Shown: positions 23,771 to 63,724 of the stretch, piece by piece
How the letters are laid out: every line of letters begins with the position of its first letter
Numbering within the stretch: position 1 is the first letter of the stretch
Source of the DNA: Desulfomonile tiedjei DSM 6799
GTDB taxonomy: Bacteria > Desulfobacterota > Desulfomonilia > Desulfomonilales > Desulfomonilaceae
Length of the DNA stretch: 64,000 nt
Direction of reading: 5' to 3'
NCBI RefSeq assembly: GCF_000266945.1
Contig: NC_018025.1
Coordinates: 806,001-870,000, forward strand
Translations under genes and position numbers: made by a program
The notes under the pieces: model-generated
What the model saw: the letters and a program-made list of their open reading frames with translations, nothing else
Databases searched by the model: none
Told to the model about the DNA's origin: nothing

Positions 23771-23800
23771 TTGACATCTTGAAAGGACTGTTGGTATCGT
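23771..23800 (+). promoter_or_regulatory. probable sigma-70 promoter of the riboswitch transcript
   Basis: TTGACA at 23771-23776 and TATCGT at 23795-23800, 18 bases apart, just upstream of the cobalamin aptamer. Confidence 0.5.
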
Positions 23801-23804
23801 ATAA

Positions 23805-24056
23805 CCGACTTGTCGGTTCCGAAATCCTACCGACATGCTTTGGGGAAAACGGTGCAAAACCGATGCTGCCCCGCAACTGTAACCGTTGACGAAATCTGCT
23901 TATACCGCTGGAAGAAATTCCGGGAACGTGCGGAGATTAGGTAAAGACGGAAGCCAGAATACCCAAGCATGGAGGTTCACCGAAAAATCCTGCGCGGGCG
24001 GGATGGTGAGAGATAAGGTCAGACCCTCTTTCGCCGCGCGCGGAAGAGGGTTTTTC
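23805..24056 (+). ncRNA. cobalamin riboswitch with terminator expression platform
   Basis: The conserved core is plain: GGGGAAAACGGTGCAAAACC (from 23842), then GCTGCCCCGCAACTGTAACC (about 23865-23884), and the B12-box AGCCAGAATACC at 23952-23963 followed by CAAGCATGG. Downstream, at 24024-24050, is a strong hairpin ending in a T tract, the likely terminator. Cobalamin binding would be expected to favour termination and so repress the Cys/Pro-protein and receptor genes that follow from 24577. The 3' aptamer boundary near 24010 is approximate. Confidence 0.92.
24022..24056 (+). terminator. intrinsic terminator of the cobalamin riboswitch
   Basis: CCCTCTT pairs with AAGAGGG, with a GC-rich inner stem (GCCGCGCGCGG) and a following TTTTT. 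It sits about 60 bases after the B12 box, at the right distance for a riboswitch expression platform. Confidence 0.85.
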
Positions 24057-42000: not shown

Positions 42001-44118
42001 TTACTCTGTGATCTCTGGTGAAACAGTCTCTGAATGCGGCGATCCGAGTGATCGAATTCCGTATTTTTTCATCTTGTCGTACAAGGTGTTGCGCCCGATT
42101 CCCAAGGCATTGGAGACCTTCGTTATGTTACCGCCAAAGTGAATAAGGGCGTCCTCAATAGCCTTCTTCTCGACTAACGCCAGCGGCATGATTTCGGTAT
42201 CCTCAGCCATTGTCCGCACAGGTTCTTTCCTTTTTAGGTGAGGGGGTAGATGAGAGAGTTTCAACTCTTCTCCTTGCAGCAAGTTGACGGCGTACTCGAT
42301 AGCGTTAGCCAGCTCCCGGACGTTCCCGGGCCAGTGGTAAGCCTCGAGAACACCGTAAATCGCGGGCTCCATACTCTCTACATTTTTTCCCACCTTTCGG
42401 GAGATTGTCTCTATGTAATGGTTAGTGAGCAACCTGACATCGCCCTTGCGGTCCCTGAGAGGCGGAATGGTTATGGCTACAACATTCAACCGATAAAACA
42501 GGTCTTCTCTGAATCTGCCTTTCGACACTTCATCATAGAGGCTTCTGTTCGTGGCAGCTATGATTCTCACATTAACAGGGATCATCTTGTTGTCGCCAAC
42601 ACGCACAATTGCCTTCCCTTCGAGAACCCTGAGAAGGTTCACCTGCATCTCTAATGGCATGTCGCCAATTTCATCAAGAAAGATGGAGCCCCCATTGGCC
42701 AATTCGAGTTTGCCGAGGCGGCCGCCTTTTTTTGCACCTGTGAAAGCCCCTTCGACATAGCCGAAGAGCTCACTCTGAATAAGCTCTGCCGGTATGGCTC
42801 CGCAATTCACCGACACGAAAGGGCCGTCTCTTCGGTCACTTGCGTTATGAATCGCCTGTGCGAAAAGCTCCTTTCCAGTTCCGCTTTCGCCAAGAATAAG
42901 GACAGTGGACGGGCTCTTGGCGACCTTCTTTGCCTTTTCCAGGGTGTCCCGCATGGTCAGGCTCTCGCCGATGATGTCCTTGAACATGAATCTTGAGTCG
43001 CTCTCATGTCTGGCGCCTGGTTGGGACGAAGCCTGTCTCACCTTTGTGAAAGTAAAGACCGCTCCCAGTTTTGAACCATCCTCACTAATTATGGAATTTG
43101 CCGACCCGACGCAGCGTACGTACGTCCTTTGCGATTTTAGCAACAACTCTTCCTCTGAGTACTCTCTGCTGCCATGCAGAAAATCATTCAGCTTTCTATC
43201 CATCCTGAGGACATCATCGATCGATCTGCCGACTAAATCCCTCGGGTGCAACATCAGGAGTCTGGCAGCCGGAGCATTGATCCCCGTGATCAGGCCCTTG
43301 TTGTCAATGGTAATCAGTCCCTCTGATACTGAGTTGAAAATAGTCGCGAGATGCTTGCTCACGCTCACGTAATACTTGTGGGACTGCTCCAGTTGTAACC
43401 GCTCTTCTATTGCCCGCACCGCGGCGACCGTGATTCCAAGGCTGTGAAAATGGGCCTTCTCTCGAGGGCCGGACATGTCCAGGCATCCGACGACGCCTCC
43501 TTGGGGGTCCCTTATGGGAGCCGCCGCACAGGTCCACAAATGGTGCGTTTCACAATAGTGCTCTGCGCCGGTCACTTCTATAGGGCATCCTATGGTCAAG
43601 GCTGTGCCAATAGCGTTTGTACCCACACTGTGTTCAGACCAGTTGGCTCCCGGGCCGAAGTTGAGTTTCTCGGCCTGCCTGATTGACACCAGATCGCCAA
43701 GGCTGGCAAGGATGTACCCGTCTGTGTCCACCAAAACGATCACAAAGCCCGAACCGCGGACACATTGATGAAGTGTTTCCATGATGGGTTCTGATATCTC
43801 GCGCAGAAGGCCTTTTCTCTCCTCCAAGTCTCTGTCGGAGATGAAATCCCGGCACTTTCCTTCGTCAAACTCGACGCCTGCATTCTTACATCTTTCCCAG
43901 GATTCGAGGATTGCTCTTCTCACCGGAGGCGTTTCCACCGACCCCTTTCTTACGAAGTCATTCCAGAACTGCCTCTCCATCTGAGTGCACGGACTCCAAA
44001 GCTGGGAAAGTGATTCCTGGAGAACCGGCTCTGACACGTGATTAATCGCGGCTGCATCGGCAGACGCACTTCTCTCGATTACCCGGAACTGATCTTCGAC
44101 TCGGACTAACTTGTACAT
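42001..44118 (-). CDS. acoR: AcoR-type sigma-54-dependent activator
   Basis: 705 residues: an N-terminal GAF sensor domain (about 60-230; LVDTDGYILASLGD, VGTNAIGTALTIGCPIEVTGAEHYCETHH), a PAS domain (about 255-360), an AAA+ domain (Walker A GESGTGKELF, sigma-54 loop GAFTGA, DEIGDMP), and a C-terminal Fis-type helix-turn-helix (GGNITKVSNALGIGRNTLYDKMKKYG). This is the acetoin catabolism activator layout. GGGGGAG lies 7 bases before the ATG. It ends the leftward aco region and is the likely binder of the TGTTCG-N5-CGAACA sites at 57678-57770, next to sigma-54 promoters on both sides. Confidence 0.92.
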   Translation of the reverse strand: MYKLVRVEDQFRVIERSASADAAAINHVSEPVLQESLSQLWSPCTQMERQFWNDFVRKGSVETPPVRRAILESWERCKNAGVEFDEGKCRDFISDRDLEERKGLLREISEPIMETLHQCVRGSGFVIVLVDTDGYILASLGDLVSIRQAEKLNFGPGANWSEHSVGTNAIGTALTIGCPIEVTGAEHYCETHHLWTCAAAPIRDPQGGVVGCLDMSGPREKAHFHSLGITVAAVRAIEERLQLEQSHKYYVSVSKHLATIFNSVSEGLITIDNKGLITGINAPAARLLMLHPRDLVGRSIDDVLRMDRKLNDFLHGSREYSEEELLLKSQRTYVRCVGSANSIISEDGSKLGAVFTFTKVRQASSQPGARHESDSRFMFKDIIGESLTMRDTLEKAKKVAKSPSTVLILGESGTGKELFAQAIHNASDRRDGPFVSVNCGAIPAELIQSELFGYVEGAFTGAKKGGRLGKLELANGGSIFLDEIGDMPLEMQVNLLRVLEGKAIVRVGDNKMIPVNVRIIAATNRSLYDEVSKGRFREDLFYRLNVVAITIPPLRDRKGDVRLLTNHYIETISRKVGKNVESMEPAIYGVLEAYHWPGNVRELANAIEYAVNLLQGEELKLSHLPPHLKRKEPVRTMAEDTEIMPLALVEKKAIEDALIHFGGNITKVSNALGIGRNTLYDKMKKYGIRSLGSPHSETVSPEITE

Positions 44119-44434: not shown

Positions 44435-45646
44435 TCAAGGGGCGCTTCTTTGATCGGGTTTTGGCATCAGCGCCTTGTGTACGAGCTGAGTCAGATCCAT
44501 GACATCTATAGGAACTTTGTTTCTCTTCACATAGGTTGTCATGGTCCGTACGCACTGCTGACAGGTGGTAACCACGGCTTGGGCGCCGGTGCCCAGCGCT
44601 TCCTCTACTTTCTGCCTGGAAATAGCAGAAGAAAGATCCGCGTCAATCATTTCCAGGTTGCCGCCACCTCCGCAGCATTGGCACTTTTCCCGATTCCTTG
44701 GAAGCTCAATCAGCTCCACGCCGGGGATGGACCGAATAACTTGCCTCGGCTCGTCAAAGACATTCGCACCACGTCCCAAATCGCAGGGGTCGTGATAGGT
44801 AACTGTGAGCCGCACTTCTTTCAGCGGGATTCTCTTTGCTTCGAGCAGTTCCATCAGGAACTCGGATGCGTGGAAGATCTCAAACTCGTGAGGATAGTAT
44901 TCGCGCCACATCTGGTAACAGGACGGGCAGGCAAAGACCACTGTTTCGGCACCTTTTCGCCGTATTGCCTCCAAGTTGTGCTTCAGATACTCGTGAAACA
45001 TTTCCCTGAGGCCCGCTCCCAGCAAAGGGAATCCGCAACACCACTCATCTTCTCCCAGCAGCGTGAAGTCTACACCGCTCACGTCAAGAATTTCCGCCAG
45101 GGCAATGGGAATGGTTTGGGCCAATGGGTAATAGGCAGCCACGCACCCGGTGAAATAGACGACTTTGGCCGTGTCCTTCATGTACCTGTGTTCGGGAGGA
45201 TCGCGCATGTCGTCTACCCAATCGGCACGTTCTTCTCCTGGTTCCCCAAAAACATTGCGGCTTTCCTCTAGATTGTCTCTGATCGTTTGGATCTTCTGCG
45301 GATAATGGCCGGAATGAAAGAGATCCTGGCGAATGGAGAGCCACAGATTCTTGAGGTTGATACCAACCGGACAGGCTTCCTGGCAGCCGGCGCAGAGCGT
45401 GCAGCGGAAGACAACACTGCTGAACCGTTTCCACTCCTCCTCGGATATGTCCCTTTTTCTTAAGATTCCACGGAACAACCCTGTACGGCTCTTTAGGACA
45501 TCTCGCAGGCCCTTCATCCGGCATAGCGCTGAAAGCGTGCCGTCCTTTGAAGCAGAAACCGCGGGACAGACATCCCCACAAAGTCTGCATTGGGTACAGG
45601 CATCCATCTCGATGAGCTGTCTGATACTGTAGTCTCGATTGCTCAC
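44435..45646 (-). CDS. HdrD-like Fe-S oxidoreductase (two CCG domains)
   Basis: 403 residues from the GTG at 45646, chosen because GAAGGA lies 5 bases upstream and it starts just after the preceding stop. Two [4Fe-4S] motifs come first (C17xxCxxCxxxCP in CTQCRLCGDVCP, and CTLCAGCQEACPVG), then two CCG domains: FTGC..DEWCCGFPLL..CPSC and DPCDLG..CQCCGGGGN..CQQC. This is the arrangement of HdrD, TmcB and GlpC-like proteins; in HdrD the CCG domains hold the cluster that cleaves or forms a disulfide. It is soluble, with no transmembrane helix, so it would sit on the cytochrome b domain of the upstream gene. Directly coupled (1 base) to the lipoyl GcvH-like gene, which may be its dithiol/disulfide partner. 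Confidence 0.9.
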   Translation of the reverse strand: MSNRDYSIRQLIEMDACTQCRLCGDVCPAVSASKDGTLSALCRMKGLRDVLKSRTGLFRGILRKRDISEEEWKRFSSVVFRCTLCAGCQEACPVGINLKNLWLSIRQDLFHSGHYPQKIQTIRDNLEESRNVFGEPGEERADWVDDMRDPPEHRYMKDTAKVVYFTGCVAAYYPLAQTIPIALAEILDVSGVDFTLLGEDEWCCGFPLLGAGLREMFHEYLKHNLEAIRRKGAETVVFACPSCYQMWREYYPHEFEIFHASEFLMELLEAKRIPLKEVRLTVTYHDPCDLGRGANVFDEPRQVIRSIPGVELIELPRNREKCQCCGGGGNLEMIDADLSSAISRQKVEEALGTGAQAVVTTCQQCVRTMTTYVKRNKVPIDVMDLTQLVHKALMPKPDQRSAP

Positions 45647-45647
45647 G

Positions 45648-46070
45648 CTAGTCCTTCTTGTATCTTGCGATGTCTGCCAGGAGCCACGGCTCCACAGTCT
45701 CTCGTCCATGAATCAGTTTCTGGACTTGCGCTGCGTCCTTTGGACGGATTCTGAACATCCATCCGGCTCCATAGCAGTCTTCGTTGATTAGAGTTGGGAT
45801 AGTAGCCAATTCCTGGTTTGAGGACTCTATCTCTCCATCCACTGGCGCATACACTATGCCCAGCCATTTTCCGGATTCCACCTTGGCGAACTTCTTTCCT
45901 GTCTGAAGAGCCTTTCCCTCGAAGGGAAGTTGAACGTACACGATCATCCCTGCCAATTGTTGGGCAAAATCGTCCATACCCATCACAAGAATGTTCCCGT
46001 CTGTTCTGACCCAAAAGTGGTGTTCCTCGTAGTAAAGGTCATCAGGCATATTGTATCCCTGGATTTCCAT
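45648..46070 (-). CDS. GcvH-like lipoyl-carrier protein
   Basis: 140 residues with the GcvH fold: YYEEHHFWVRTDGNILVMGMDDFAQQLAGMIVYVQLP, then KVESGKWLGIVYAPVDGEI with the lipoylation Lys at 68 in ESGK (ESVK in typical GcvH), then NEDCYGAGWMFRI. The lipoyl loop departs from glycine-cleavage GcvH, and no other glycine-cleavage gene is present here. Similar stand-alone lipoyl proteins (LbpA) work with heterodisulfide-reductase-like complexes in sulfur oxidisers; here it abuts an HdrD-like gene. Options: a dithiol carrier to that protein, or a lipoylation intermediate for E2. AGGA precedes the ATG. Confidence 0.85.
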   Translation of the reverse strand: MEIQGYNMPDDLYYEEHHFWVRTDGNILVMGMDDFAQQLAGMIVYVQLPFEGKALQTGKKFAKVESGKWLGIVYAPVDGEIESSNQELATIPTLINEDCYGAGWMFRIRPKDAAQVQKLIHGRETVEPWLLADIARYKKD

Positions 46071-46126
46071 TACTCTGTTCCTTTCACATCTGAAAGAGCA
46101 TCACATGCGTCGAGCCCTGGATTGGT

Positions 46127-47980
46127 TCACGGGGCCGATCCCTTTACAGGGTTCTTTAAACTGACTGTCACGGCGTTCATGCTGAGGACAACAGGCGCCA
46201 CGATGATGTGGAGCAAATGGCTGAAAGGCAAATAAGCCAGGACAGCCCCTGTTGCGATCGCGTGAAAGTACCAAAGGTACCCGTAAGCGCCTGGAAGCGC
46301 GGAAGTTTGCTCAAACACCCGACTAATGGCATATCCCAGAAATGCATATTCCGATCCGGCCGGACTTCCCTGCATGGCGATGCGTACTCCCTCCAGGACA
46401 AAACCTACGACTACCGTGGCCCCTATCAAGAAGAGCGCCAACCAGTCCTGCTTGGGGATGCCAGCCATGTCTCGATTCGGGACGACAATCCGTCGTAGAG
46501 CGATGAGGATGACACCAAAGAGGATCGACAGGCCACTCGCGTCGAACGACAAAGCCACGGGAGGGTAATCCTTGTCGAGTAACGTCCACGGTAAGGAGGA
46601 TTGCGGTATCCATAGCGAAGTCAGAAGGGCTGTCATGCCCCACAGGAAGCGGAACATGAAGGGGAAGAAGATCAGAGCATGTATGAACCAACGTGTTCTG
46701 GACTGCCGGAAGAGCCTCCTCTGCAAAAGCACATCGAGAGCTATCGTCTTGAGGGCATAGAGCCTTTTGATCACGAAGAAAAACCTTCGTGTATTGCCGG
46801 GAGGCTTGTGCATCCCTCTCTCGATGGTTGATTTTCCCGATGCGGAAACGTTCCCGGAGAACCAGACCGCGGCCAGTCCAATGAGCCCAAACAAGAGCAC
46901 CAGCAGCGATATCATGGATGTTGTGTCCGCTATGGACAGGGTGGCCGCATGACATGGCATGCATATGATGCTTTTTGGGGGAAGAACCATTGCCGCAGCA
47001 CCTATTACGTTTGCACTATTGTGGCAACGTTCGCAGGAGCCCGCGGCGGCCGTCAGAGTCATGTTATGAACATCGATAGGTCTGTCGGTCTTGCGGTCAA
47101 TCTGCCAAAGGATTGTTCCGGATGCGGCATTTTTTACCGGAATGGCGCCCGCGATGTGGCAAGCCTCGCAACTTACCCGGAGGTGGGCATCGTGCGCGAT
47201 TTTCTCATCGTGTCTGTGATGACAGCTCAGGCAAGGGGTCCGTTCTCGCTTTGTATGACCGAACTCTGCAGACTTCGGGTGGCAAACGAGGCATGACAGC
47301 TTGGAATGCGTGGTTGATGTATACGAGTGACTCTCGATAATCGGAACGGTGCCTGTGACGTTTACACGTTCCGTATTCTTTCTATTACTCTCCGTACCGT
47401 GACAGGCAAAGCAGAAGTCGGAGACTTTCCGCACGGTTTCGGCACCTTCTGTCCCGACCGATCGGTGACAGGCCATGCACTTCTCATCTTGAAGAGAAAG
47501 GGTAGGGAGGCTCGTTTGAAGCTTGTGGCATGCTCCACATTGCTGGTTGACAGGTTTTGACGGATCGAAAGATGCCGCGAGATTCTTTGTAGCAAGCTGG
47601 TAATGCGGGTCGTGGCAGTTAACGCAAAAATTGTATTCCTGTCGGTTGTCGACTGGTTTGCCGGCGTGCGTCCCGCTGTCCATTTTAACCACTATATCTT
47701 CGTGACAGCGTGCGCATTTTTCAGTTCGAAAGAAATCGCGCACCGACTTGTTGACATCGGCAGGATTGGGATGCCGCTCCTCCTGCGGGGTTGAGACATG
47801 ACAGTCGGTGCAAGAAATCTGCCCATGGACCGAAACATGGAAGCGACCGGCATCCACAAACCACGAAGCCCCAACATGGGGCGCCACCGCTAACAAGAGC
47901 GCTGCAATCAGCGCTGAGGCGCTCAATCTCCGGCAGAGACTTCGAATCGATGTCCTTGGTGTTTTGTCTACCGAACCCAT
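46127..47980 (-). CDS. 11-heme cytochrome c fused to b-type membrane domain
   Basis: 617 residues. N-terminal export signal (about 18-40), then eleven CXXCH heme c sites (SCTDCH, KCARCH, FCVNCH, QCGACH, KCMACH, FCFACH, SCLVCH, PCLSCH, SCEACH, SCERCH, ICMPCH) to about residue 340. A membrane anchor follows (SMISLLVLLFGLIGLAAVWF), then a four- to five-helix NarI/HdrE/DsrM-like domain with candidate heme b His (WFIHALIFFPF, WYFHAIATGAVLAYLPFSHLLHII). It would carry electrons between the cytoplasmic HdrD-like protein, the quinone pool and periplasmic cytochromes. A fusion of both parts in one chain inside an acetoin operon is unusual. Confidence 0.9.
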   Translation of the reverse strand: MGSVDKTPRTSIRSLCRRLSASALIAALLLAVAPHVGASWFVDAGRFHVSVHGQISCTDCHVSTPQEERHPNPADVNKSVRDFFRTEKCARCHEDIVVKMDSGTHAGKPVDNRQEYNFCVNCHDPHYQLATKNLAASFDPSKPVNQQCGACHKLQTSLPTLSLQDEKCMACHRSVGTEGAETVRKVSDFCFACHGTESNRKNTERVNVTGTVPIIESHSYTSTTHSKLSCLVCHPKSAEFGHTKRERTPCLSCHHRHDEKIAHDAHLRVSCEACHIAGAIPVKNAASGTILWQIDRKTDRPIDVHNMTLTAAAGSCERCHNSANVIGAAAMVLPPKSIICMPCHAATLSIADTTSMISLLVLLFGLIGLAAVWFSGNVSASGKSTIERGMHKPPGNTRRFFFVIKRLYALKTIALDVLLQRRLFRQSRTRWFIHALIFFPFMFRFLWGMTALLTSLWIPQSSLPWTLLDKDYPPVALSFDASGLSILFGVILIALRRIVVPNRDMAGIPKQDWLALFLIGATVVVGFVLEGVRIAMQGSPAGSEYAFLGYAISRVFEQTSALPGAYGYLWYFHAIATGAVLAYLPFSHLLHIIVAPVVLSMNAVTVSLKNPVKGSAP

Positions 47981-48034: not shown

Positions 48035-49093
48035 TCACTGTGGCGACACGAGAATCTTGATATGCTGTTCCCTGTTTGCAAGCAGCTCCTTGAAGCCCTT
48101 CTCCACAATATCATCCAACTTGATTTTGGCTGTAATCATGGGCTGAGCGGCGATTCTACCATCTGCCATGAGGGCAATAGCTGTGCTGAACTCACCGTAG
48201 TATGCGAGAGAGCCGACGATTTCCTTCTCAAAGAAGACCAGGTTGTTGAAGTGGATCTCGCTGGGCTTCTCAAAAATCCCCACCAGCACGGTCTTTCCCC
48301 CTTGCCTGGTCAAATCCACGGCAAGCGCACCTGTCTCGCTGCCACCGACACACTCGATGGCCACATCGACCCCGAGTCCGTCGGTCAGTTGACGAACCGC
48401 CTTGATCGCATCCTGTTCCGAAGGATCGATGACGGCAGTGGCCCCGAGCTTCTTTGCGTATTCCTTCCGGGCTTGAGCCATTTCGAGCACGATGACCTTG
48501 CTCGCCCCTGCTGCTTTGGCCGCCTGCAGCGTAACCAGTCCAATGGTACCTGCCCCCACCACCGCAACAGTGTCGCCCTCAAGAACGCGGCCTCTCCGGA
48601 TGGCGTGCACTCCTACCGCAGCCGGCTCCACGACGGCACCGACGTCAGAAGGCATTTCCGGAGGAAGTCTGTAGATGGTGTAAGCGGGAACATTCACGTA
48701 ATCTGCAAAAGCGCCGTTGGCCATGAGCCCCGTGAAGGCCAAGGAACTGCACACGCTGTAGCGGTTCCGTTTGCACATATAGCATTTTCCGCAGTACTGG
48801 CAGGCATCTGCGGTGATTCTCTCCCCAACCTGAATATTCTGGACCCCTTCACCAATTTCAACCACTTCGCCTGAGAACTCATGACCCAGAATCAAAGGTG
48901 CCTGCACACCTGTCAGAGGATGAGGAGCTTCCGCAGGGATGAAGATAGGACCTGCATCGTACTCGTGCAGATCGGAGCCGCAGATGCCGCACCAGTGGAC
49001 TTTTACTTTGACCTGTCCGGGCCCTGGTGCGGGAGGCTCGGGAACATTCTCCACTCGCACGTCCTTCTTTCCGTACCATACAGCCGCTTTCAT
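48035..49093 (-). CDS. zinc alcohol dehydrogenase, (R,R)-butanediol dehydrogenase type
   Basis: 352 residues from the ATG at 49093 (MKAAVWYGKKDVRVE), with AGGAG 8 bases upstream. Catalytic Zn ligands are in CGICGSDLHEY and GHEFSG; structural Zn Cys are in CQYCGKCYMCKRNRYSVC; the NAD-binding motif is GAGTIG. The closest type is (R,R)-2,3-butanediol dehydrogenase, converting butanediol to acetoin, which then feeds the dehydrogenase complex encoded in the same operon. Substrate is inferred from family and context. Confidence 0.88.
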   Translation of the reverse strand: MKAAVWYGKKDVRVENVPEPPAPGPGQVKVKVHWCGICGSDLHEYDAGPIFIPAEAPHPLTGVQAPLILGHEFSGEVVEIGEGVQNIQVGERITADACQYCGKCYMCKRNRYSVCSSLAFTGLMANGAFADYVNVPAYTIYRLPPEMPSDVGAVVEPAAVGVHAIRRGRVLEGDTVAVVGAGTIGLVTLQAAKAAGASKVIVLEMAQARKEYAKKLGATAVIDPSEQDAIKAVRQLTDGLGVDVAIECVGGSETGALAVDLTRQGGKTVLVGIFEKPSEIHFNNLVFFEKEIVGSLAYYGEFSTAIALMADGRIAAQPMITAKIKLDDIVEKGFKELLANREQHIKILVSPQ

Positions 49094-49115
49094 CCCCTGT
49101 TCTCCTTTTCGCTCC

Positions 49116-49436
49116 CTACTTCCCAAATATCTCGTCGCCGCTTTTGAACCCTAACCCAGGATGCATATCGAACCGAACGACTCCCACGGGGATCTGGCCT
49201 CCCACTGCCTCCACCACTTTGGCGGTGCCGACGTTGCCGAATCCTCCGCACAGCTCGATGGCCTGGATTCCAGCAGCAGCCAAGTCTTTTGAAACTCGTG
49301 CCGCGTCTGCATAATCTTTCACGGCGATCGCAAGCAGCTCGACATGAGGGGTCTTTACCCATGATCTGTGCTGGAGCGGATCCCCTTCCGGAGCGATGAA
49401 AATAAACGCCGCCTTGAGCGCTTCATTGGTGGACAT
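49116..49436 (-). CDS. small conserved protein (DUF6506-like)
   Basis: 106 residues from the ATG at 49436, chosen for AGGAG upstream. KAAFIFIAPEGDP starts a beta strand; AARVSKDLAAAGIQAIELCGGFGNVGTAKVVEAVGGQIPVGVVRFDMHPGLG looks like a small alpha/beta domain with a Gly-rich loop and a conserved Cys. I believe it belongs to the DUF6506 family, from memory. It is 22 bases before the butanediol dehydrogenase gene. Role unknown. Confidence 0.65.
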   Translation of the reverse strand: MSTNEALKAAFIFIAPEGDPLQHRSWVKTPHVELLAIAVKDYADAARVSKDLAAAGIQAIELCGGFGNVGTAKVVEAVGGQIPVGVVRFDMHPGLGFKSGDEIFGK

Positions 49437-49520
49437 GATGTTGGTCTCCTTTGAAAGATCGTTTTGACTACATACACCGTAAGTCAGGTACATCAGCGAC
49501 CACGTTTGAGAAACGTCGTG

Positions 49521-50564
49521 CTAATGCCGTTCCATCCTTCCACTCAAACTGCGAGTTAGCTCGCCTCCCATATCGGGGCATTTCTCCCAAGCGAAAACCT
49601 GCCTGGTCATGGCCGCGGACATGGTTCGGGCTACATCCACCACCACAGGGCCGTCCTTCGCAAGATAGATGGCTGCATGTTGGCCGGGACGCACCTCCAC
49701 TTCTCTCTCGCCGTCCAGCGCCAGGACTGACGGCACGGTGCATACCTGCATCTCTTCTCCGACATTCATAACTCTCTCGCTTTTGATGGGGACATCTTCA
49801 ATCAGTCCTGGCGCAACCGCTGCCCTGACAAAACGATCGTCCCCGCCGAGTTCCAGATACAGGCACTGCGGCTGTTCGGCACGGATGCGGTGAAGCTGGC
49901 CTCCGATGGCGGAAAGGCCGATATTGCCTGGTTCCGCCCGATTGAAGAAGACCTGACGAACCTTTCGCATGTCCCAGACCGCTCTGGATGCCACAAAAAG
50001 GTCTTCGCACACAGCTACGTCGATCAAGGCCATATCAACGACTCTTCCGTCCAACTTGACATCCAGTCTGGTAGAGGAAAAGGTGCTTTCTTCCATTGGC
50101 ACAGCCCTGTTTGCAATGAGACCCGCGGCCAACCCTGCTACGGTTGCTTCGATCATGTAAGAAAAGACGTTGTTTGTTCCCGTAGAGATCGGTAGGATGG
50201 GAACCCGTGTGGTTCCTTTGGCTACTACACGGTTGGTCCCATCCCCACCCAAGGTGACAATGCATGTTGCACCTTTTTCTTCCATAATTCTCGCAGCTTC
50301 TACGGAATCTCTCTGGTCGGCTTTAGTGTCGAAGTTTAGAGACGCCACGGAGATGTCGACCTTTAGCCCATCCAGAGCTCTCGGGACAATCCCATAGTAG
50401 TCGGGCATGTAGCAGACCTGATCTACTCCCACTGCCTTCAGCCCGAGCAAGACACGGCGCACAATCCGCACCTTTTCCTGATTGTCAAAGGCGCTGCCGA
50501 ACGCCACAAGCCGGCGGATATCCTTACCCGAGGCCGGATTGGCAATGATTCCCACGAGTGACAA
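49521..50564 (-). CDS. acoX: AcoX, NAD-kinase-like protein of acetoin catabolism
   Basis: 347 residues from a TTG start with GGGAGG 5 bases upstream. N-terminal MSLVGIIANPASGKDIRRLV and TCIVTLGGDGTNRVVAKG give the ATP-NAD kinase-type GGDGT motif. AcoX proteins occur in acetoin operons next to E1 genes, but their reaction is not established. Position between acoB and a small conserved gene agrees with this. Likely cytosolic. Confidence 0.88.
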   Translation of the reverse strand: MSLVGIIANPASGKDIRRLVAFGSAFDNQEKVRIVRRVLLGLKAVGVDQVCYMPDYYGIVPRALDGLKVDISVASLNFDTKADQRDSVEAARIMEEKGATCIVTLGGDGTNRVVAKGTTRVPILPISTGTNNVFSYMIEATVAGLAAGLIANRAVPMEESTFSSTRLDVKLDGRVVDMALIDVAVCEDLFVASRAVWDMRKVRQVFFNRAEPGNIGLSAIGGQLHRIRAEQPQCLYLELGGDDRFVRAAVAPGLIEDVPIKSERVMNVGEEMQVCTVPSVLALDGEREVEVRPGQHAAIYLAKDGPVVVDVARTMSAAMTRQVFAWEKCPDMGGELTRSLSGRMERH

Positions 50565-50613: not shown

Positions 50614-51591
50614 CTATGATTCCACCACCGTCTTGACCGCCTTGACGATCTTCTCCTCGTTGGGGATGAACTCCCGCTCTAGGACTGGAGAGAAGGGAAC
50701 CGGCACGAAGGGCGCAGCCACTCGTAGGATCGGAGCATCCAGTCTGTCAAACGCTTTTTCGGCAACGAGCGCCGCGATCTCTGCTCCCGGGCCCTGGAAC
50801 TTCACCGCCTCGTGAACAATCACCAGGCGATGCGTTTTGCGGACCGATTCCAGAATGGTGTCTTCATCCAGCGGGCTGAGAGTCCGAGGATCCAACACCT
50901 CTACGCTGATGCCGTCAGCAGCCAGTTTCTCGGCGGCGCCCATCGCAACACGGACCGTTTGGGCTGTGGCAATGACCGTGACGTCCTTTCCTTCACGCTT
51001 GATATCTGCCTTGCCTAACGGAATGGTGTACTCTCCGTCTGGCACATCGCCTTCACTTGCGTAAAGGATTTTGTGCTCCAGAAAGACCACAGGGTTGTCG
51101 TCCCGGATCGCCGAGATAAGGAGCCCTTTAGCATCATGGGGAGTGCTCGGTATCACGACTTTGAGTCCCGGCACGTGCATGAACCAGGACTCCAGGCACT
51201 GAGAATGCTGAGCCGCCGCGCCAATTCCGGCTCCGCATGTGGCCCTCAACACCATAGGGATCTTGGCCTTTCCGCCGAACATGTACTTCATTTTGGCGGC
51301 CTGATTGAAAAGTTGATCCATAGCCACTCCGATGAAGTCGACAAACATCAATTCAACCACCGGTCGCAATCCGCAAGACGCTGCCCCGACTGATGTTCCT
51401 ATGATGGCGCTTTCGGTAATGGGCGTGTCGCGCACCCTCTTCGGCCCAAACTGGTCGAGCAGTCCGGCAGTCACGCCAAAAATTCCACCGTAAACACCCA
51501 CATCTTCACCTGCCACGTAAACATTGGGATCTCGCAGCATCTCGATCTTGTGGGCATCGTTTAAGGCTTGAGCAAATGTCATAGTCGGCAT
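50614..51591 (-). CDS. acoB: acetoin dehydrogenase E1 component, beta subunit
   Basis: 325 residues of the transketolase-like pyrimidine-binding type: GEDVGVYGGIFGVTAGLLDQFG, ESAIIGTSVGAASCGLRPVVELMFVDF, a central HSQCLESWFMHVPGLKVVIPS, and a C-terminal transketolase domain (VLDPRTLSPLDEDTILESV, IVHEA). Forms the TPP-dependent E1 heterotetramer with the alpha subunit encoded 61 bases upstream. GGAG lies 9 bases before the ATG. Assignment to acetoin rather than pyruvate rests on the linked acoX, acoR and butanediol dehydrogenase. Confidence 0.9.
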   Translation of the reverse strand: MPTMTFAQALNDAHKIEMLRDPNVYVAGEDVGVYGGIFGVTAGLLDQFGPKRVRDTPITESAIIGTSVGAASCGLRPVVELMFVDFIGVAMDQLFNQAAKMKYMFGGKAKIPMVLRATCGAGIGAAAQHSQCLESWFMHVPGLKVVIPSTPHDAKGLLISAIRDDNPVVFLEHKILYASEGDVPDGEYTIPLGKADIKREGKDVTVIATAQTVRVAMGAAEKLAADGISVEVLDPRTLSPLDEDTILESVRKTHRLVIVHEAVKFQGPGAEIAALVAEKAFDRLDAPILRVAAPFVPVPFSPVLEREFIPNEEKIVKAVKTVVES

Positions 51592-51652: not shown

Positions 51653-52615
51653 CTATTGCGTGTACAAGTCCTGTGTCAGCTCACTGGGATCGGGATACGG
51701 ACTCTCTTCCGCGAAACGCTCGGCTTCTGCTATCCGCTTCGCTATGGATGCCCTGATTTCATCGATCTCTTGCTGAGTCAGCACTCCCAAATCCAACAGT
51801 TTCTTTTCGAATCGAGGAATCGGATCTTTCTCTTTCCATTCCTGGACTTCTTCCGAGCATCGGTACACGCAGGGGTCACCCTCGAAATGGCCACGATGAC
51901 GGTACGTCTTGCACTCGATCAGCGACGGCCCCAGTCCTTCTCGCGCCCGCTTGATTCCTTCGCTGGCAGCTTCATAGACCGCCATGACATCGTTCCCGTC
52001 CACCACGACTCCAGGCATGTCATACGCACCGGCCCGGTCCGCGATGTTCGGCACGCACATAGAAGTCGTTGTGCAAGAGGATATGCCGTACATGTTGTTC
52101 TCAGCGACAAAGACAACCGGCAGTTTCCAGCATGTTGCGAGATTCATGGCTTCATGGGTTGTCCCCTGGTTGGATGCTCCATCTCCGAAAAAGCAGACGG
52201 CTATGCTCTCCTTTCCCTGGTACTGGCATGCCAGAGCGGCCCCTGTGGCCAGGGGAGGGCCTGCCCCCACAATACCGTTGGCCCCCAGAATCCCAAGGTC
52301 AACGTCGGCAATGTGCATAGAGCCTCCCTTGCCCTTGCAGTACCCATTCTTTTTGCCAAGCACTTCGGCCATCATGCACTTCAAGTCCCCTCCCTTTGCA
52401 ATGAGATGGCCGTGGCCTCGGTGGGTGCTGGTGATGTAGTCGGTGGCAAGCAAATTTGCGCATACGCCTGTTGCCACTGCTTCTTCGCCGACGTAAAGAT
52501 GCACGAACCCCGGGATCTTTCCGGCCGCAAAAAGCTCGCTCACCCGCGTCTCAAACATGCGAATCGTAGTCATGACCGTATACATATCGATCATCTGTTC
52601 CTTGTTGATCTCCAT
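51653..52615 (-). CDS. acoA: acetoin dehydrogenase E1 component, alpha subunit
   Basis: 320 residues from the ATG at 52615 (MEINKEQMIDMY), with GGAGGG upstream; a longer upstream frame is not credible. TPP-binding motif runs from FFGDGASNQGTTHEAMNLA to AENNMYGISS; the phosphorylation-loop region is TYRHRGHFEGD. The shorter N-terminus than pyruvate E1 alpha fits AcoA. Catalyses TPP-dependent cleavage of acetoin to acetaldehyde and an acetyl group passed to the E2 lipoyl domain. TPP supply may come from the co-regulated thiC across the control region. Confidence 0.9.
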   Translation of the reverse strand: MEINKEQMIDMYTVMTTIRMFETRVSELFAAGKIPGFVHLYVGEEAVATGVCANLLATDYITSTHRGHGHLIAKGGDLKCMMAEVLGKKNGYCKGKGGSMHIADVDLGILGANGIVGAGPPLATGAALACQYQGKESIAVCFFGDGASNQGTTHEAMNLATCWKLPVVFVAENNMYGISSCTTTSMCVPNIADRAGAYDMPGVVVDGNDVMAVYEAASEGIKRAREGLGPSLIECKTYRHRGHFEGDPCVYRCSEEVQEWKEKDPIPRFEKKLLDLGVLTQQEIDEIRASIAKRIAEAERFAEESPYPDPSELTQDLYTQ

Positions 52616-52727
52616 CTTTCTGTCCCTCCATGCTGGAAGTGTCGGTGACTGAAATCCTGAAGCCTCCTTCCCGAGTCTGTGAGATGTGCTGCCGGTCCCT
52701 TGAAAACCCTCCTTTCCCCATACTTGG

Positions 52728-53090
52728 TCACCTTTCAATGAGCACTGTCACTGCAGCGTTGGCCACTATGATCTGGTCGCAATCGCTCGCGAATTGCGCC
52801 ACGCAAAGCCCCTTTGTTATCATTCCACCCTCGATGACTCGAGCAGTCTTGCGCCCTATTGGGACCTCGGCCATCACCCGATCGAGGTCGACGTCCCCGG
52901 GCCTGGGCACAGCCACGAGGACCTCTACGTCCAGCGCCAGCAGATCCACCATCCCAAGGATTTCGACAAGCCCGCAGAGACAGCTCCTGGAAATAGCATC
53001 CTTCACGGCGCGACAGGCGGCCTTGGTTACATCCTCGCCATGAAGGTCTATGCCGGTTCCGATCTCCACGATGAAGCGTTGCGCTGCCAC
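52728..53090 (-). CDS. Lin0512-family conserved protein
   Basis: 120 residues from a GTG start whose ribosome binding site (AAGGGG) overlaps the end of the lipoyl synthase frame. RFIVEIGTGIDLHGEDVTKAACRAVKDAISRSCLCGL, then LDVEVLVAVPRPGDVDLDRVMAEVPIGRKTARVIEGGM, fits the small Lin0512/TIGR02058 family, as I recall it. Function unknown; its place between lipBA and E1 genes suggests a role in the complex or its cofactors. Confidence 0.7.
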   Translation of the reverse strand: MAAQRFIVEIGTGIDLHGEDVTKAACRAVKDAISRSCLCGLVEILGMVDLLALDVEVLVAVPRPGDVDLDRVMAEVPIGRKTARVIEGGMITKGLCVAQFASDCDQIIVANAAVTVLIER

Positions 53091-53094
53091 GATT

Positions 53095-54642
53095 TCACCC
53101 CTTTGACTGATAAGATTTGAGTGGTTGTCTCATTGAACAGACCATTTCACCCGCGCGATAAGAACTTCGAACCAGAGGTCCTGCTGCCACTTTCTTGAAT
53201 CCTTCCGATCGAGCGATCTGGGCCCACTCTTCGAATTCGGCCGGAGACACGTAACGACTCACTGGAAAGTGTTCTTTGGAAGGTGCAAGATACTGCCCGA
53301 GGGTGAGAAACGAACAGCCTGTACGGCGAAGGTCTGTAATCGCCTCCAGAATCTCTTGTTCTGTCTCGCCGAGTCCCAGCATGATGCCGGATTTGACGAT
53401 AAGCCCGTGCTTGCCGGCATATTCCAGGATACCCAACGAGCGTTGGTACCTCGCCTTGGGGCGAACGATGGGATAGAGGCGTTTCACTGTCTCTACGTTA
53501 TGGTTGAACACATCCGGACGAATGTCACAGATTCTCTGTAAGGCCTTCAGAGATCCCCTGAAGTCCGGAACAAGAACTTCGACGCTCACATCCGGACAAC
53601 ATTCTCGGACCTTCTCTACAGTTCTTACAAAATGCTCGGCGCCTCCGTCGGGAAGGTCATCTCGCGTCACAGAGGTAATCACGGCGTGTTTGAGTCGAAG
53701 GAGTTGCACTGCTTGAGCTATGCGTTCCGGCTCGCCTCCATCCACAGCGTCAGGCTTGCCTTTGTCTACTGCACAGAACCTGCATGTTCGGGTGCATATG
53801 GTCCCCAGGATCATGAAGGTAGCAGTTCCACGCGCGAAGCACTCGCCCAGGTTAGGACAGCGAGCGCTTTGACAAACAGTACTGAGACGCAGCCAGGAAA
53901 GCACGGACTCCATTCGATCGATGGATTCCGTGCACGAAGGAGAGAGAACTAACCAGGAAGGTCGCTCCGTAGGTCGTTGGCGCACCTCCGGCGGTGTCGC
54001 ATATCCGAAAATGCGGCAAAAAGCTCTCGTGAAACGATCTTTCACCTCAGCCATATCCACTGACTGCCCCAACTCGCGCTCCATGGAGGTGACCTTTCCG
54101 TCCGGATCGCCGCAAGGGTTGATAGATTCGAACCACCGGAGGTCAGCATTCACATTCAACGCAATGCCGTGGTAGGTCACCCATCGTCGGCATGCTACGC
54201 CCACACTCGCAATCTTTGCGGCGCCGGCCCATACACCGGGGTTTCTCCCTCTGAACTCGGAAGCCAATCCGTAGCTCCGGAGTACTGCTGCAACTGTCTC
54301 CAGTAGCATTTGCAGGTACAGCCGTAAGTCTTTGGTCTGGAGCTTAACGATCGGATAAGCCACAAGCTGCCCGGGACCATGAAAAGTGGCCATGCCACCT
54401 CGGTCTACGTGGAATACCGAGGCCCCTTTCCGATTGATTGCTTCTTCAGATTCTCGAAGGTCGTCCAGACTTCCGCTTCGTCCTATGGTCACCACCGGGG
54501 GGTGTTCAACCAAGATCAAGCGGTCCGGAGAAAGTTCTGCAATGCGCTCCGAAACCAAAGCTTCCTGGAGCTTCAAAGCGTCGTCGTATATCAAAAGTCC
54601 CCAGTCCAGGACCTGCAAATGAGAAATTGAGGCATCGGTCAT
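53095..54642 (-). CDS. LipB-LipA fusion: octanoyltransferase plus lipoyl synthase
   Basis: 515 residues from the ATG at 54642 (MTDASISHLQ), with GAGGAGG 8 bases upstream. Residues about 1-225 are LipB: VTIGRSG, GGMATFHGPGQLVAYPI, the Lys in AKIASVGVACRRWVTYHG and the catalytic Cys in INPCGDPDG. Residues about 230-510 are LipA: the auxiliary-cluster motif CQSARCPNLGEC (CX4CX5C), the radical-SAM motif CTRTCRFC, RDDLPDGGAEHF, NVETVKRLYPIVRPKA and a final VRSSYRAGE with the Ser ligand. Both halves keep all key residues. It would make the lipoyl cofactor in place, from octanoyl-ACP, on the E2 and GcvH-like proteins encoded beside it. Separate lipB and lipA genes are the norm. Confidence 0.92.
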   Translation of the reverse strand: MTDASISHLQVLDWGLLIYDDALKLQEALVSERIAELSPDRLILVEHPPVVTIGRSGSLDDLRESEEAINRKGASVFHVDRGGMATFHGPGQLVAYPIVKLQTKDLRLYLQMLLETVAAVLRSYGLASEFRGRNPGVWAGAAKIASVGVACRRWVTYHGIALNVNADLRWFESINPCGDPDGKVTSMERELGQSVDMAEVKDRFTRAFCRIFGYATPPEVRQRPTERPSWLVLSPSCTESIDRMESVLSWLRLSTVCQSARCPNLGECFARGTATFMILGTICTRTCRFCAVDKGKPDAVDGGEPERIAQAVQLLRLKHAVITSVTRDDLPDGGAEHFVRTVEKVRECCPDVSVEVLVPDFRGSLKALQRICDIRPDVFNHNVETVKRLYPIVRPKARYQRSLGILEYAGKHGLIVKSGIMLGLGETEQEILEAITDLRRTGCSFLTLGQYLAPSKEHFPVSRYVSPAEFEEWAQIARSEGFKKVAAGPLVRSSYRAGEMVCSMRQPLKSYQSKG

Positions 54643-54718
54643 TCTGAGCGCCTCCTCTCGTCTCTGAGGGCCAAGAGGACCAGGCTTCAGCGCAAACCGA
54701 GAACGCTCAAGTCTGGAG

Positions 54719-56095
54719 TCAGCGTTTCGGTAGATAGAGTGCCCAACCCGCAGTGTCCTTGGCCGCATCGGCGACTGTCTCCGAGTACGTCGGATGCACT
54801 CGAATACTGCGGGCAAGTTCGTTTACCGTTGCTTCCAGTTGCATGGCGAGGATAGCCTCGCCCACCAGGTCCGTGGCACCAGCTCCCACAATGTGAACAC
54901 CGAGGATTTCTCCGTATCGAGAATCCGACACGACTTTCACGGACCCTTCGACTTCGCCGCGGCTCATAGCCAGGCCGTTGATGGCATAGGGAAGGGTTCC
55001 CACCTCGATTTCCAATCCTCTTTTCTCCGCCTCCTCTTCGGAAAGGCCAACTGCACCCACTTCCGGCGATGTCCAAAGGCCGCGTGGGATCAGATGGAAA
55101 GGATACGTGCTACCTCTCTCCATACAGTTCTCCCCCGCAACGATTGCCATGGAGGATGCGGCATGGCTGAACATCCAGCCTCCAATGACGTCTCCGATGG
55201 CATAAATGCCCTTTACGGAAGTCTCCAACCGGTTGTCCACCAGGATTCCCCCATCCTCATTCAGCTTCACGCCGACCTGCTCGAGCCCCATATTGACCGT
55301 CGCCGGTTTTCTCCATGCAACCAGTACCTTTTGCACTTCAACACTGCGATCTGCGGCCGCCGAGAGCACACACGACCAGCCGGCTCCAGATTCTGCCTTC
55401 GTGATCGATTTGAGCGTGTGACGTGTGAGAACCTCTACTCCTTTCTCCCTGAGGGACTGCGTGATTCTCTGGCTGGTGTCATGGTCTTCGCGAGCGAGGA
55501 CGCGCGACGATTCGGTGGCCAAGACCACCTTGCAGCCGAAAGAGTTGAGGAGAAAGGCCATTTCTACTTCTATATAGCCGGAATCACACACGAGAATTGA
55601 CGACGGGACGTCCGTCATTTCGAAAAGCTGATCCGTAGTGAATGCCGCCTCTTTCAGTCCCGGAATAGGAGGGAACGCCAGGGAGCTTCCGGTAGCGACA
55701 ATTATTGTCTTTGCCTCATAAACCGTGTCTTCCACAGCTATTTCCCGAGGGCCCTTTATCACGGCACGCCCCCGCAAAACCGACACGCCGTTGTTTTGAA
55801 GAAGTGCCTCCATGCCCATCCGGATGTCTGTCGCTACCCCATTTTTGCGATCGACAATAGCTTGCAGGTTTACCTGTTCGATGGCAGCCTGGATTCCGAA
55901 CTCATGACCTTCGCGGATCAAGGCCAGGAGCGCTGCTGCACGCAACCATGTCTTGCTGGGGATGCATCCGGTGTTCACGCACGTGCCACCCATTTGGCCA
56001 CATTCCACGAGGGCCACCTTTCCTCCGAGCTGAGACGCTCTGATAGCTGCTGCGTATCCTCCAGGTCCTCCGCCAATCACAATCACATCATACAT
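54719..56095 (-). CDS. acoL: dihydrolipoyl dehydrogenase (E3)
   Basis: 458 residues: FAD-binding IGGGPGGYAAAIRASQLG, redox disulfide GGTCVNTGCIPSK, NAD domain, second FAD motif GIYAIGDVIGG, and the C-terminal His-Glu pair in HPTYSE. A degenerate spot is the NAD-binding region SSILVCDSGYIEVEMAFLL, where the usual GGGxIGxE is CDSGYIEVE, so NAD binding may be altered. It should reoxidise dihydrolipoyl E2. GAGGGA precedes the ATG. Second gene of the aco operon, 31 bases after E2. Confidence 0.9.
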   Translation of the reverse strand: MYDVIVIGGGPGGYAAAIRASQLGGKVALVECGQMGGTCVNTGCIPSKTWLRAAALLALIREGHEFGIQAAIEQVNLQAIVDRKNGVATDIRMGMEALLQNNGVSVLRGRAVIKGPREIAVEDTVYEAKTIIVATGSSLAFPPIPGLKEAAFTTDQLFEMTDVPSSILVCDSGYIEVEMAFLLNSFGCKVVLATESSRVLAREDHDTSQRITQSLREKGVEVLTRHTLKSITKAESGAGWSCVLSAAADRSVEVQKVLVAWRKPATVNMGLEQVGVKLNEDGGILVDNRLETSVKGIYAIGDVIGGWMFSHAASSMAIVAGENCMERGSTYPFHLIPRGLWTSPEVGAVGLSEEEAEKRGLEIEVGTLPYAINGLAMSRGEVEGSVKVVSDSRYGEILGVHIVGAGATDLVGEAILAMQLEATVNELARSIRVHPTYSETVADAAKDTAGWALYLPKR

Positions 56096-56126: not shown

Positions 56127-57458
56127 TCAGGTCAGAATGAGAGCCGGCTGTTCGAGATAACCCGCGAGCAATCCCAGGAACTCACTTGCGGGTGCGCCAT
56201 CGACGACTCGATGATCGATGGTGAGGCTGAGCCTCATCATGGATCGGATCGTTATCTCACCCTTGAGGACAACCGGCTTTTCCACCACGCGGCCGACTCC
56301 GAGAATTCCCGTCTCGGGCGGTCGCAAGATGGGAGTGAAATTGTCCACGTTCGATGCGCTCAGATTTGTAATCGTAAAGGTCCCGCCAGTCACATCTTCA
56401 ACGCTAAGTGAGCTTGAGCGGGCTTTCTCAACAAGGGTACGCGCCTCTGCGGCAATTTGCAGGAGCCCTTTTTGGTCTGCTTCATGGAGCACCGTCACGA
56501 TCAGACCGTCGGGAATGGCCACAGCTATCCCCATGCCGACTGAGTCGTGCAGGATGATTTCATCACCGATCTGGGTTGAGTTCATGATAGGAAAACGTTT
56601 CAAGGCACGGGAAGTCGCCAGGATGAGAACGTCATTGAGCGAAATCCTGACGGATTCATCCTTCTTGTAGATCTCTCTCACGAGGTTCTGAAAACGCAGC
56701 GAGTCGGTGACATCCACCTCGGTCATTAGAGTGAGTTGTGCAGTGTTCTGCAGGCTGGCGTGCATGTTATCTGCAATGGCTTTTCGCATGCCTGTCAGAG
56801 GAATGGTTTTGCCAGGCCCCGTCTTCTCCTCGATTACCGGCGTCTTCTGCTGGAGAGCTCGTTCCACATTCTCCTTGGTTATCTTCCCACCCTCTCCTGT
56901 GCCGGTGATTGTGGAGATGTCGAGTGCTGCTTGATTCGCCATCGCTTCCGCGAGTGGGGTGATTCTGGGCCTTCGTTGGGCTTCCTCATGATATCGCGTG
57001 ACGTCTGCTTCCTTGATTCGTCCCTCTGCGCCCGTGCCCGTCACTAGGGCCAGGTCTACTCCGAGATCCTTTGCCAGACGCTTTGCTGCAGGGGTTGCCA
57101 GGATATCGCCTTTTTCCTTGGGCTTTTCGGCTTCTACTCTCGATGCGGCGCCGGCATATGCCGCCTTTGTCTCGGTAACATCGCCGGTCTGTGTTCCTTC
57201 CATCCGCTCGGGTTGTTCCCCTGATTCCGCGATCACGGCCACAATGGCGCCAACCGGGACGACCGCACCAGCGGGGACGACGATCTGGAAAAGAATTCCG
57301 GTGACAGGGGCTTCGACTTTGTTGGTGATCTTCTCCGTCTCCACCTCGAAAAGATCTTCGCCTTTCCGCACGTTATCTCCTTCATCCTTGTGCCACTTTG
57401 ACACTTTTCCGGTCTTCATGGTCATACCGAGTTTCGGCATTGTGACGTGAACGCTCAC
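56127..57458 (-). CDS. acoC: acetoin dehydrogenase E2 (dihydrolipoyl acetyltransferase) with two subunit-binding domains
   Basis: 443 residues from the GTG at 57458, chosen for GGGAGG 9 bases upstream; an upstream GTG lacks a signal. One lipoyl domain with the lipoyl Lys at 43 (VETEKITNKVEAP), a first peripheral subunit-binding domain (ATPAAKRLAKDLGVDLALVTGTGAEGRIKEADV), a second one (ITPLAEAMANQAALDISTITGTGEGGKITKENV), and a catalytic domain ending in DHRVVDGAPASEFL with the active His and Asp. Two binding domains in tandem are unusual; E2 normally has one. First gene after the leftward sigma-54 promoter. Confidence 0.9.
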   Translation of the reverse strand: MSVHVTMPKLGMTMKTGKVSKWHKDEGDNVRKGEDLFEVETEKITNKVEAPVTGILFQIVVPAGAVVPVGAIVAVIAESGEQPERMEGTQTGDVTETKAAYAGAASRVEAEKPKEKGDILATPAAKRLAKDLGVDLALVTGTGAEGRIKEADVTRYHEEAQRRPRITPLAEAMANQAALDISTITGTGEGGKITKENVERALQQKTPVIEEKTGPGKTIPLTGMRKAIADNMHASLQNTAQLTLMTEVDVTDSLRFQNLVREIYKKDESVRISLNDVLILATSRALKRFPIMNSTQIGDEIILHDSVGMGIAVAIPDGLIVTVLHEADQKGLLQIAAEARTLVEKARSSSLSVEDVTGGTFTITNLSASNVDNFTPILRPPETGILGVGRVVEKPVVLKGEITIRSMMRLSLTIDHRVVDGAPASEFLGLLAGYLEQPALILT

Positions 57459-57524
57459 TGGTACGGTCCTCCCGTTGGCGTAATCATGTGAAGTCACGGA
57501 TCAAGAGGGAACGCTGCGGTGATT

Positions 57525-57541
57525 TTGCAACTACTATGCCA
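57525..57541 (-). promoter_or_regulatory. sigma-54 promoter of the aco operon
   Basis: The minus strand reads TGGCATAGTAGTTGCAA: GG and GC are 10 bases apart and the -12 box is TTGCA. Transcription would start near 57515, 57 bases before the chosen acoC start. Confidence 0.8.
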
Positions 57542-63506: not shown

Positions 63507-63533
63507 GACTCCTACCCCTGAACAGTAGGAGTC
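63507..63533. other. 9-bp perfect hairpin
   Basis: GACTCCTAC and GTAGGAGTC flank a 9-base loop, just upstream (on the minus strand) of the terminator at 63454. No T tract of its own. Confidence 0.5.
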
Positions 63534-63724
63534 ATCAGCCGAATCCGGCTCGGCGGTTAATTAGGCAGACTCCATTGCCTCGTGCGAGAAAATCTAACGA
63601 AAACTTTCCGAATATGCAAGCCTGGACGTTCCGGAAAAATGGGCCTTCCGGAACTCCATTTATTCCTTGCTTCACAAAGTTCGGGAAGGAACTTCTTGTG
63701 AGAAGCTCCTCCCCATAGCTGCAG

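Follow-up and report, generated by a model that had tools for sequence, protein, structure and literature searches.

A conserved cytochrome, GcvH-like and HdrD-like gene trio of Desulfomonile tiedjei as a probable electron route between protein-bound lipoic acid and the membrane

Introduction

The Tmc, Hmc and Dsr complexes of sulfate reducers contain HdrD-like, NarI-like and multiheme cytochrome parts, and lipoyl dehydrogenase complexes are taught as reducers of nicotinamide adenine dinucleotide (NAD). This work concerns three genes that stand with the acetoin dehydrogenase (aco) genes of Desulfomonile tiedjei DSM 6799 and encode an 11-heme cytochrome c/b fusion, a GcvH-like protein and an HdrD-like protein (the trio). 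Judged from sequence, the electrons of protein-bound lipoic acid probably pass, by way of the trio, to a cytochrome in the membrane and not to NAD. The window, by which we mean the whole stretch of 64,000 nucleotides that was analyzed, comprises positions 806001-870000 of the 6,500,104-base contig NC_018025.1 (assembly GCF_000266945.1; 2 contigs, 6,527,027 bases). No earlier report of the trio was found in the open-access full-text literature searched, which does not cover subscription journals and preprints.

Each of the closest described systems shares some parts with this locus. AcoABCL, the NAD-dependent acetoin dehydrogenase, has E1, E2, E3, acoX-like and acoR-like genes in common with the window; the window E3 (dihydrolipoyl dehydrogenase family), however, is without an NAD site, and the run of genes also holds the trio and lipB-lipA. 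In sHdr-LbpA sulfur oxidation, as set out in sections of two reports (PMC6067878, PMC10332631), a GcvH-like lipoyl protein occurs with Hdr-type proteins, as in the trio, together with LplA, LipT-like, LipS1 and LipS2 genes such as are found near many trio relatives. The window differs in having a membrane HdrD with a cytochrome and a dehydrogenase complex, and it gives no indication of sulfur oxidation. Membership of the window GcvH in LbpA was rejected: the two conserved cysteines near the N- and C-terminus of LbpA (with archaeal exceptions, according to PMC6067878) are absent from it, Cys99 being the sole cysteine in 140 residues, and its neighbors are not shdr genes but aco genes, the cytochrome and HdrD. 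HdrDE of methanogens, like the trio, joins a two-CCG HdrD-type protein to a membrane cytochrome b, with a dithiol/disulfide couple as the substrate (in part after sections of PMC13083937), whereas in the trio coenzymes M and B would be replaced by protein-bound lipoyl, and 11 periplasmic hemes are fused to the cytochrome b. Mycobacterial EtfD (9ojn) has the same fold as the trio HdrD and a membrane heme-b link to menaquinone (described in part of PMC13083937). From these comparisons the trio should work like HdrDE and resembles sHdr-LbpA; the system lacks tested features of LbpA, EtfD and NAD-dependent E3, and we regard it as a new variation on thiol electron transfer based on Hdr.

Gene Arrangement and Proposed Electron Route

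The trio genes are consecutive on the minus strand (47980-44435) in the order cytochrome, GcvH-like, HdrD-like, at the 3' end of the same-strand aco cluster. The features on which the argument turns are as follows.

46127-47980, minus strand: cytochrome with 11 CXXCH motifs, then a NarI-type cytochrome b domain (Pfam and motif count)
45648-46070, minus strand: GcvH-like protein, predicted lipoyl carrier, Lys68 in VESGKW (Pfam and motif)
44435-45646, minus strand: HdrD-like protein with two CxxCxxCxxxC and two CCG cysteine sets, GTG start assumed (Pfam, motif and fold match)
54719-56095, minus strand: E3, dihydrolipoyl dehydrogenase family, with degenerate NAD site and intact flavin adenine dinucleotide (FAD) motif, CxxxxC and HPxxxE (motif and family scan)
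55514-55588, minus strand: degenerate NAD site of E3, residues ~170-194, CDSGYIEVE ... VVLAT (alignment)

The original prediction, made from the letters of the window, had described the trio as consecutive genes of an aco operon, and the open reading frames, Pfam matches and surrounding aco genes bear this out. Its gaps of 56 and 1 bases are correct given an HdrD start at GTG 45646; the alternative start at ATG 45709 (45709-44435) would overlap gcvH. Its remaining structural claims also held, namely an 11-heme cytochrome c/cytochrome b fusion (11 CXXCH motifs and Nitrate_red_gam), a GcvH-like protein with Lys68 (GCV_H match and position of ESGKW), an HdrD-like protein with two CCG domains (ten cysteines retained as in disulfide-active Hdr), and an altered NAD motif, CDSGYIEVE, in the E3, which could be extended to all the readable acetoin-type E3s of such loci (see below).

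Acetoin cleavage by E1/E2 would yield dihydrolipoyl-E2. The NAD-blind E3 would reoxidize it, and through dithiol-disulfide exchange the two electrons would reach the lipoyl group of GcvH Lys68; HdrD, with two predicted noncubane clusters, would oxidize the GcvH dithiol, and the electrons would travel through cubane clusters to heme b and from there to menaquinone and/or the 11 periplasmic hemes. An E3 unable to use NAD, if such it is, means that the reduced lipoyl groups of E2 need another outlet; GcvH is the other expected lipoyl-disulfide carrier of the run and adjoins an Hdr-type enzyme and a membrane cytochrome, which suggests the sequence E2, E3, lipoyl-GcvH, HdrD, heme b. We infer from the genes every transfer, the lipoylation of Lys68, docking, direction and final acceptor. 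That the trio is a membrane-bound dithiol oxidase with the lipoylated GcvH-like carrier as substrate, fed by the NAD-blind E3 of the aco operon, is the reading we favor and hold to be rather probable.

Menaquinone lies at about -0.07 V and NAD at about -0.32 V. With lipoamide at -0.29 V (a value given in part of PMC6067878), the step from lipoamide to menaquinone would therefore be downhill. If the favored reading is true, an E3 subfamily that has no NAD site and is tied to both a lipoyl carrier and a thiol oxidase in the membrane would couple a lipoyl dehydrogenase complex directly to respiration. Some sulfate-reducer proteins annotated as dihydrolipoyl dehydrogenase or GcvH would then be misnamed: the window E3 clears the NCBIfam lipoamide dehydrogenase cut-off though its NAD site is gone.

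The Trio as a Conserved Module

A genome scan with the GcvH-like protein as query gave 113 relatives, the best 80 of which were kept as loci; in a search that covered 297 genomes from the phylum, flanks were read at the top 40 listed places, plus three later stretches. Five contigs seen twice (L149, L150, L154, L160, L161) were removed, which left 115 loci; some alignment or neighbor counts may retain L160 and L161. Neighboring genes were called by tblastn with few reference proteins, a procedure that distant forms can escape. GcvH is at least 55% identical to the query in 86 of the 115 loci, and in these HdrD lies downstream in 78 and the cytochrome b part upstream in 69, many contigs being short. 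Where at least 5 kb upstream and at least 2.5 kb downstream could be read, the complete trio was present in 35 of 41 loci (exceptions L039, L041, L050, L071, L108 and L159). Chance adjacency of the three genes was rejected in view of this recurrence, which supports the trio as a conserved module.

Contexts were assigned wherever 8 kb or more could be read upstream. Among these 49 loci, a 2-oxoacid/acetoin dehydrogenase is present in 20, GlcD and/or a GlcF-like partner in 21, both in one and neither in seven. The aco label stands for any match to E1, E2 or E3 and thus takes in other 2-oxoacid complexes, and the sole locus with both labels (L162) has just an E3 match on the aco side. Assignment followed a 9-kb rule, after which inspection moved L095 to the aco group and L050, L098 and L103 to the GlcD/GlcF group; GlcD and the GlcF-like partner were identified on one representative each. 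The original prediction had proposed that reduced lipoyl groups from acetoin cleavage are oxidized by HdrD, with co-occurrence in other genomes as a check and a trio found mostly away from lipoyl complexes as the adverse outcome. The conserved trio, the GcvH class, the ten CCG cysteines and the broken E3 described below speak for this proposal; it proved too narrow, GlcD/GlcF contexts being about as frequent (21 vs. 20 of 49) as lipoyl complexes, so that the stated adverse outcome applies by half.

The GlcD/GlcF contexts suggest to us a wider role of the carrier, and in these loci the carrier and membrane pair seem, from gene content, to serve hydroxyacid dehydrogenases. The GlcF-like partner has all ten CCG cysteines in 42 of 43 ungapped rows (three gapped rows excluded), with just the glycine of CCG differing, a hint that in GlcD loci lipoyl-GcvH may be loaded by this partner as well. 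Lactate, at about -0.19 V, would donate electrons to lipoamide only weakly. Some GlcD-type loci have, in their vicinity, a protein of the lactate-racemase family and a tripartite ATP-independent periplasmic (TRAP) transporter.

A GcvH Class Linked to Hdr-Type Genes

The GcvH-like protein (140 aa) matches Pfam GCV_H (PF01597; E 6.8e-35), with the lysine of VESGKW at residue 68. Its NCBIfam scores are 125.1 bits for NF002270, above the cut-off of 117, and 102.2 bits for TIGR00527, below the cut-off of 115.85. Tryptophan follows the lipoyl lysine (the KW class) in 112 of 115 loci, mostly as ESGKW. An Hdr-type gene (HdrD, HdrB, HdrC or GlcF-like) lies within 4 kb of the KW-type GcvH in 106 of these 112 loci, and gcvT or gcvP within the same distance in none of them. 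Among 20 control GcvHs, hand-picked from weaker rows of the phylum search, the residue is not tryptophan in 19, an Hdr-type neighbor was found in none, and gcvP/gcvT neighbors were found in eight; the single KW-type control adjoins lplA, DUF116, lipT, lipS1 and lipS2. These counts support the assignment of the window GcvH to a KW class that is tied to Hdr-type genes. A role in glycine cleavage was rejected, as gcvT/gcvP neighbors are absent and a separate gcvT-gcvH-gcvPA-gcvPB set stands elsewhere in the genome.

The D. tiedjei genome has six GcvH-family places, two of the ESGKW type, one in the window and one near 213 kb. The latter directly follows HdrA-, HdrC- and HdrB-like genes (L031, ~209-214 kb; locus positions 4132-8638). 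A 299-aa protein of the same genome (L032, 6923-7822) has a cysteine-rich N-terminal part followed by a GcvH-like domain without the usual ESxK motif.

Of 56 loci in which 5 kb could be read downstream, two duplicates included, 38 gave at least one match to a lipoate-assembly gene (lplA, lipT, lipS1 or lipS2); lplA was the sole match among the assembly genes looked for in 18 of the 56. Family scans of representatives back LplA with DUF116, LipS1 and LipS2, the last two slightly below NCBIfam cut-offs, and the LipT label comes from a geranylgeranyl-reductase-family match and gene neighborhood. LbpA is lipoylated by the same type of gene set (PMC10332631).

It is conceivable that HdrD and the cytochrome draw electrons directly from dihydrolipoyl-E2 or E3, GcvH being a lipoyl-relay, assembly or regulatory protein. 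The presence of lipB-lipA inside the operon would fit this, as would the GcvH-based lipoyl relay known in Bacillus (treated in part of PMC6067878), but GcvH stays beside HdrD in GlcD/GlcF loci that have no nearby E2 match. GcvH was, however, the query by which the loci were selected, and its presence at each is not independent evidence. We judge direct transfer unlikely.

For the favored reading, with GcvH as substrate, a generalization can be put forward. HdrB and HdrC genes lie within 9 kb in 14 of 29 loci whose GcvH is below 55% identity, and at L174 and L177 a single GcvH is flanked by the HdrD set on one side and an HdrABC set on the other. Lipoylated GcvH of the KW class might be a general two-electron dithiol carrier in bacteria of the Desulfobacterota type, comparable to coenzymes M and B but bound to protein. 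It would receive electrons from the NAD-blind E3s of 2-oxoacid/acetoin dehydrogenases or from the Hdr-type GlcF subunits of hydroxyacid dehydrogenases, and would give them up either to HdrD-cytochrome at the membrane or to HdrABC in the cytoplasm. We give this proposal an even chance.

Loss of the NAD Site in E3

In the window E3, D-S-G-Y-I-E replaces the G-x-G-x-x-G of NAD-dependent E3s, and Thr replaces the acid after the second strand. The FAD motif, CxxxxC and HPxxxE are retained, and the TIGR01350 score is 424.5 bits against a cut-off of 408.8. The model superposes over its full length on solved E3s (template modeling score 0.94), so the domain is kept though the NAD residues are lost.

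The NAD site is not intact in any of the 21 readable acetoin-type E3s of KW-type GcvH loci, and the ways of loss vary; the redox cysteines are kept in 20/20 covering rows and His-Pro-Glu in 21/21. Left out of the 21 were L075 (site not covered), L046 (acid position alone covered, Thr) and L189 (GcvH on another contig). The trio accompanies 19 of the 21. Other E3-like proteins, 23 from genomes of our selection (25 chosen; those with a match and a retrieved locus) plus L114, have an intact site in 22 of 24 cases, including 7/7 that adjoin an E2 gene, and the non-intact pair (L118, L207) are ~30% identical homologues. The E3 of L162, which lies ~8 kb from a trio GcvH at a GlcD locus, is counted among the 24 as L211; if it is excluded, the intact number becomes 21 of 23. 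Ten of the 297 genomes have an E3 with 48% identity or more to that of the window; it is degenerate in 10/10, and all 10 genomes carry a KW-type GcvH, at the same locus in eight. Of 20 further E3 loci at 38-42% identity, 18 are intact.

Several observations weigh against the favored reading. For about half of the trios, the neighborhood contains no lipoyl dehydrogenase complex. The E3-like proteins of L162 and L111, near KW-type GcvHs in GlcD contexts, have intact NAD sites (L111 is a partial fragment and belongs to neither the 21 nor the 24). The two remaining E3s at 38-42% identity (L238, L249; family f22) have lost the third glycine alone and retain the acid; in the L238 genome, a GlcD locus carries a KW-type GcvH as well. 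L179 and L185 combine a degenerate E3 and a KW-type GcvH without a cytochrome match. In a tree from which some distant rows were omitted, one branch separates 20 degenerate from 20 intact E3s (Shimodaira-Hasegawa-like approximate likelihood ratio test, 96). The degenerate E3s thus form a single clade, which argues for one old event rather than many independent losses, and on this tree the E3 association counts as one evolutionary event.

At L185 and L179, GlcD- and HdrD-like genes lie between two GcvHs, in one run with acetoin-type and lipoylation genes.

The HdrD-Like Protein and the Cytochrome

The HdrD-like protein matches Pfam CCG in two stretches (E 1.5e-34) as well as Fer4 families. It falls far below the NCBIfam equivalog cut-offs of the corresponding Tmc, Hmc and Dsr subunits (TmcB, 100.6 of 735 bits; HmcF, 72.2 of 750; DsrK, 93 of 400). 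All ten CCG cysteines, in two sets of five, are present in the window HdrD and in 69 of 70 ungapped trio rows (eight gapped rows excluded).

Fold matches of the HdrD model (mean predicted local distance difference test score 87) were led by EtfD (Z 31.8), followed by LutA (26.9) and HdrB chains (22.6-23.5). The first of these would suit a quinone reductase of the EtfD kind that receives its electrons from a flavoprotein, GcvH being a passenger. According to the relevant sections of PMC13083937, however, Hdr clusters open up when they react with disulfides, but those of EtfD are non-catalytic and kept closed, Thr replacing one CCG cysteine (the first CCG) and a histidine capping the cluster. 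In the alignment the trio HdrDs have Cys at the former position and Ser or Thr in place of the histidine, and thus retain the cysteines of open clusters; we consider an EtfD-like function quite improbable. The Helicobacter protein 3kwl, of unknown function, was also among the fold matches (Z 23.4).

In an HdrD tree built by a quick method, the three context labels need 13 changes (minimum 2) and aco vs. glcD needs six. Switching between partners is likely, with the reservation that 28 of the 70 inner branches are open.

The cytochrome (617 aa) matches multiheme Pfam families and, at residues 453-599, Nitrate_red_gam; it has one N-terminal hydrophobic stretch and several later ones. H434, H573 and H591 are invariant across 63 aligned rows, and two of them are 18 residues apart, as in NarI. 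Heme motifs number 11 in 37 of 60 rows, six in 16, 10 in four, seven in two and nine in one. Reversed flow, in which periplasmic electrons enter through the hemes and HdrD reduces lipoyl-GcvH for biosynthesis, is the least probable of the alternatives, for although the related HdrD/NarI complexes Hmc and Tmc of sulfate reducers are thought to carry electrons inwards, the operon is one for breakdown and includes an acoR-like activator, and the E3 is without an NAD outlet.

Other Genes and Features of the Window

The minus-strand order is acoC (E2), E3, lipB-lipA fusion, Lin0512, acoA and acoB, then acoX-like, DUF6506, zinc-alcohol-dehydrogenase-like, cytochrome, GcvH-like and HdrD-like genes, and finally the acoR-like activator. 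We infer a single transcript for the run. The features not given above are:

57526-57541, minus strand: sigma-54-type promoter match TGGCATAGTAGTTGCA, one mismatch, 28 bases upstream of the listed acoC start
56127-57497, minus strand: E2 (acoC), one lipoyl domain (family scan)
53095-54816, minus strand: LipB-LipA fusion, lipoate assembly (family scan); the open reading frame overlaps E3 and its true start is likely downstream of 54816
51653-52738, minus strand: acoA, E1 subunit (sequence and family scan)
50614-51591, minus strand: acoB, E1 subunit (sequence and family scan)
49521-50564, minus strand: acoX-like, NAD-kinase-like family (family scan)
48035-49126, minus strand: zinc-alcohol-dehydrogenase-like open reading frame, labeled butanediol dehydrogenase by sequence reading only
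42001-44118, minus strand: acoR-like sigma-54 activator (family scan)

Three sigma-54-type promoter matches with one mismatch occur in the window, including the one upstream of acoC; at two mismatches the number is at chance level (40 found vs. 31.7 expected). The E2 (56127-57497) has two E3-binding domain matches, the usual number being one, and LipB and LipA are joined in a single 573-aa open reading frame within the operon. The aco run also encodes Lin0512-family (52728-53090) and DUF6506 (49116-49493) proteins, the function of both families being unknown, and matches to one or both recur at several related loci. Two cobalamin riboswitches and one fluoride riboswitch were found in the window, at 280-407 (minus strand), 23795-23984 (plus strand) and 63519-63588 (minus strand).

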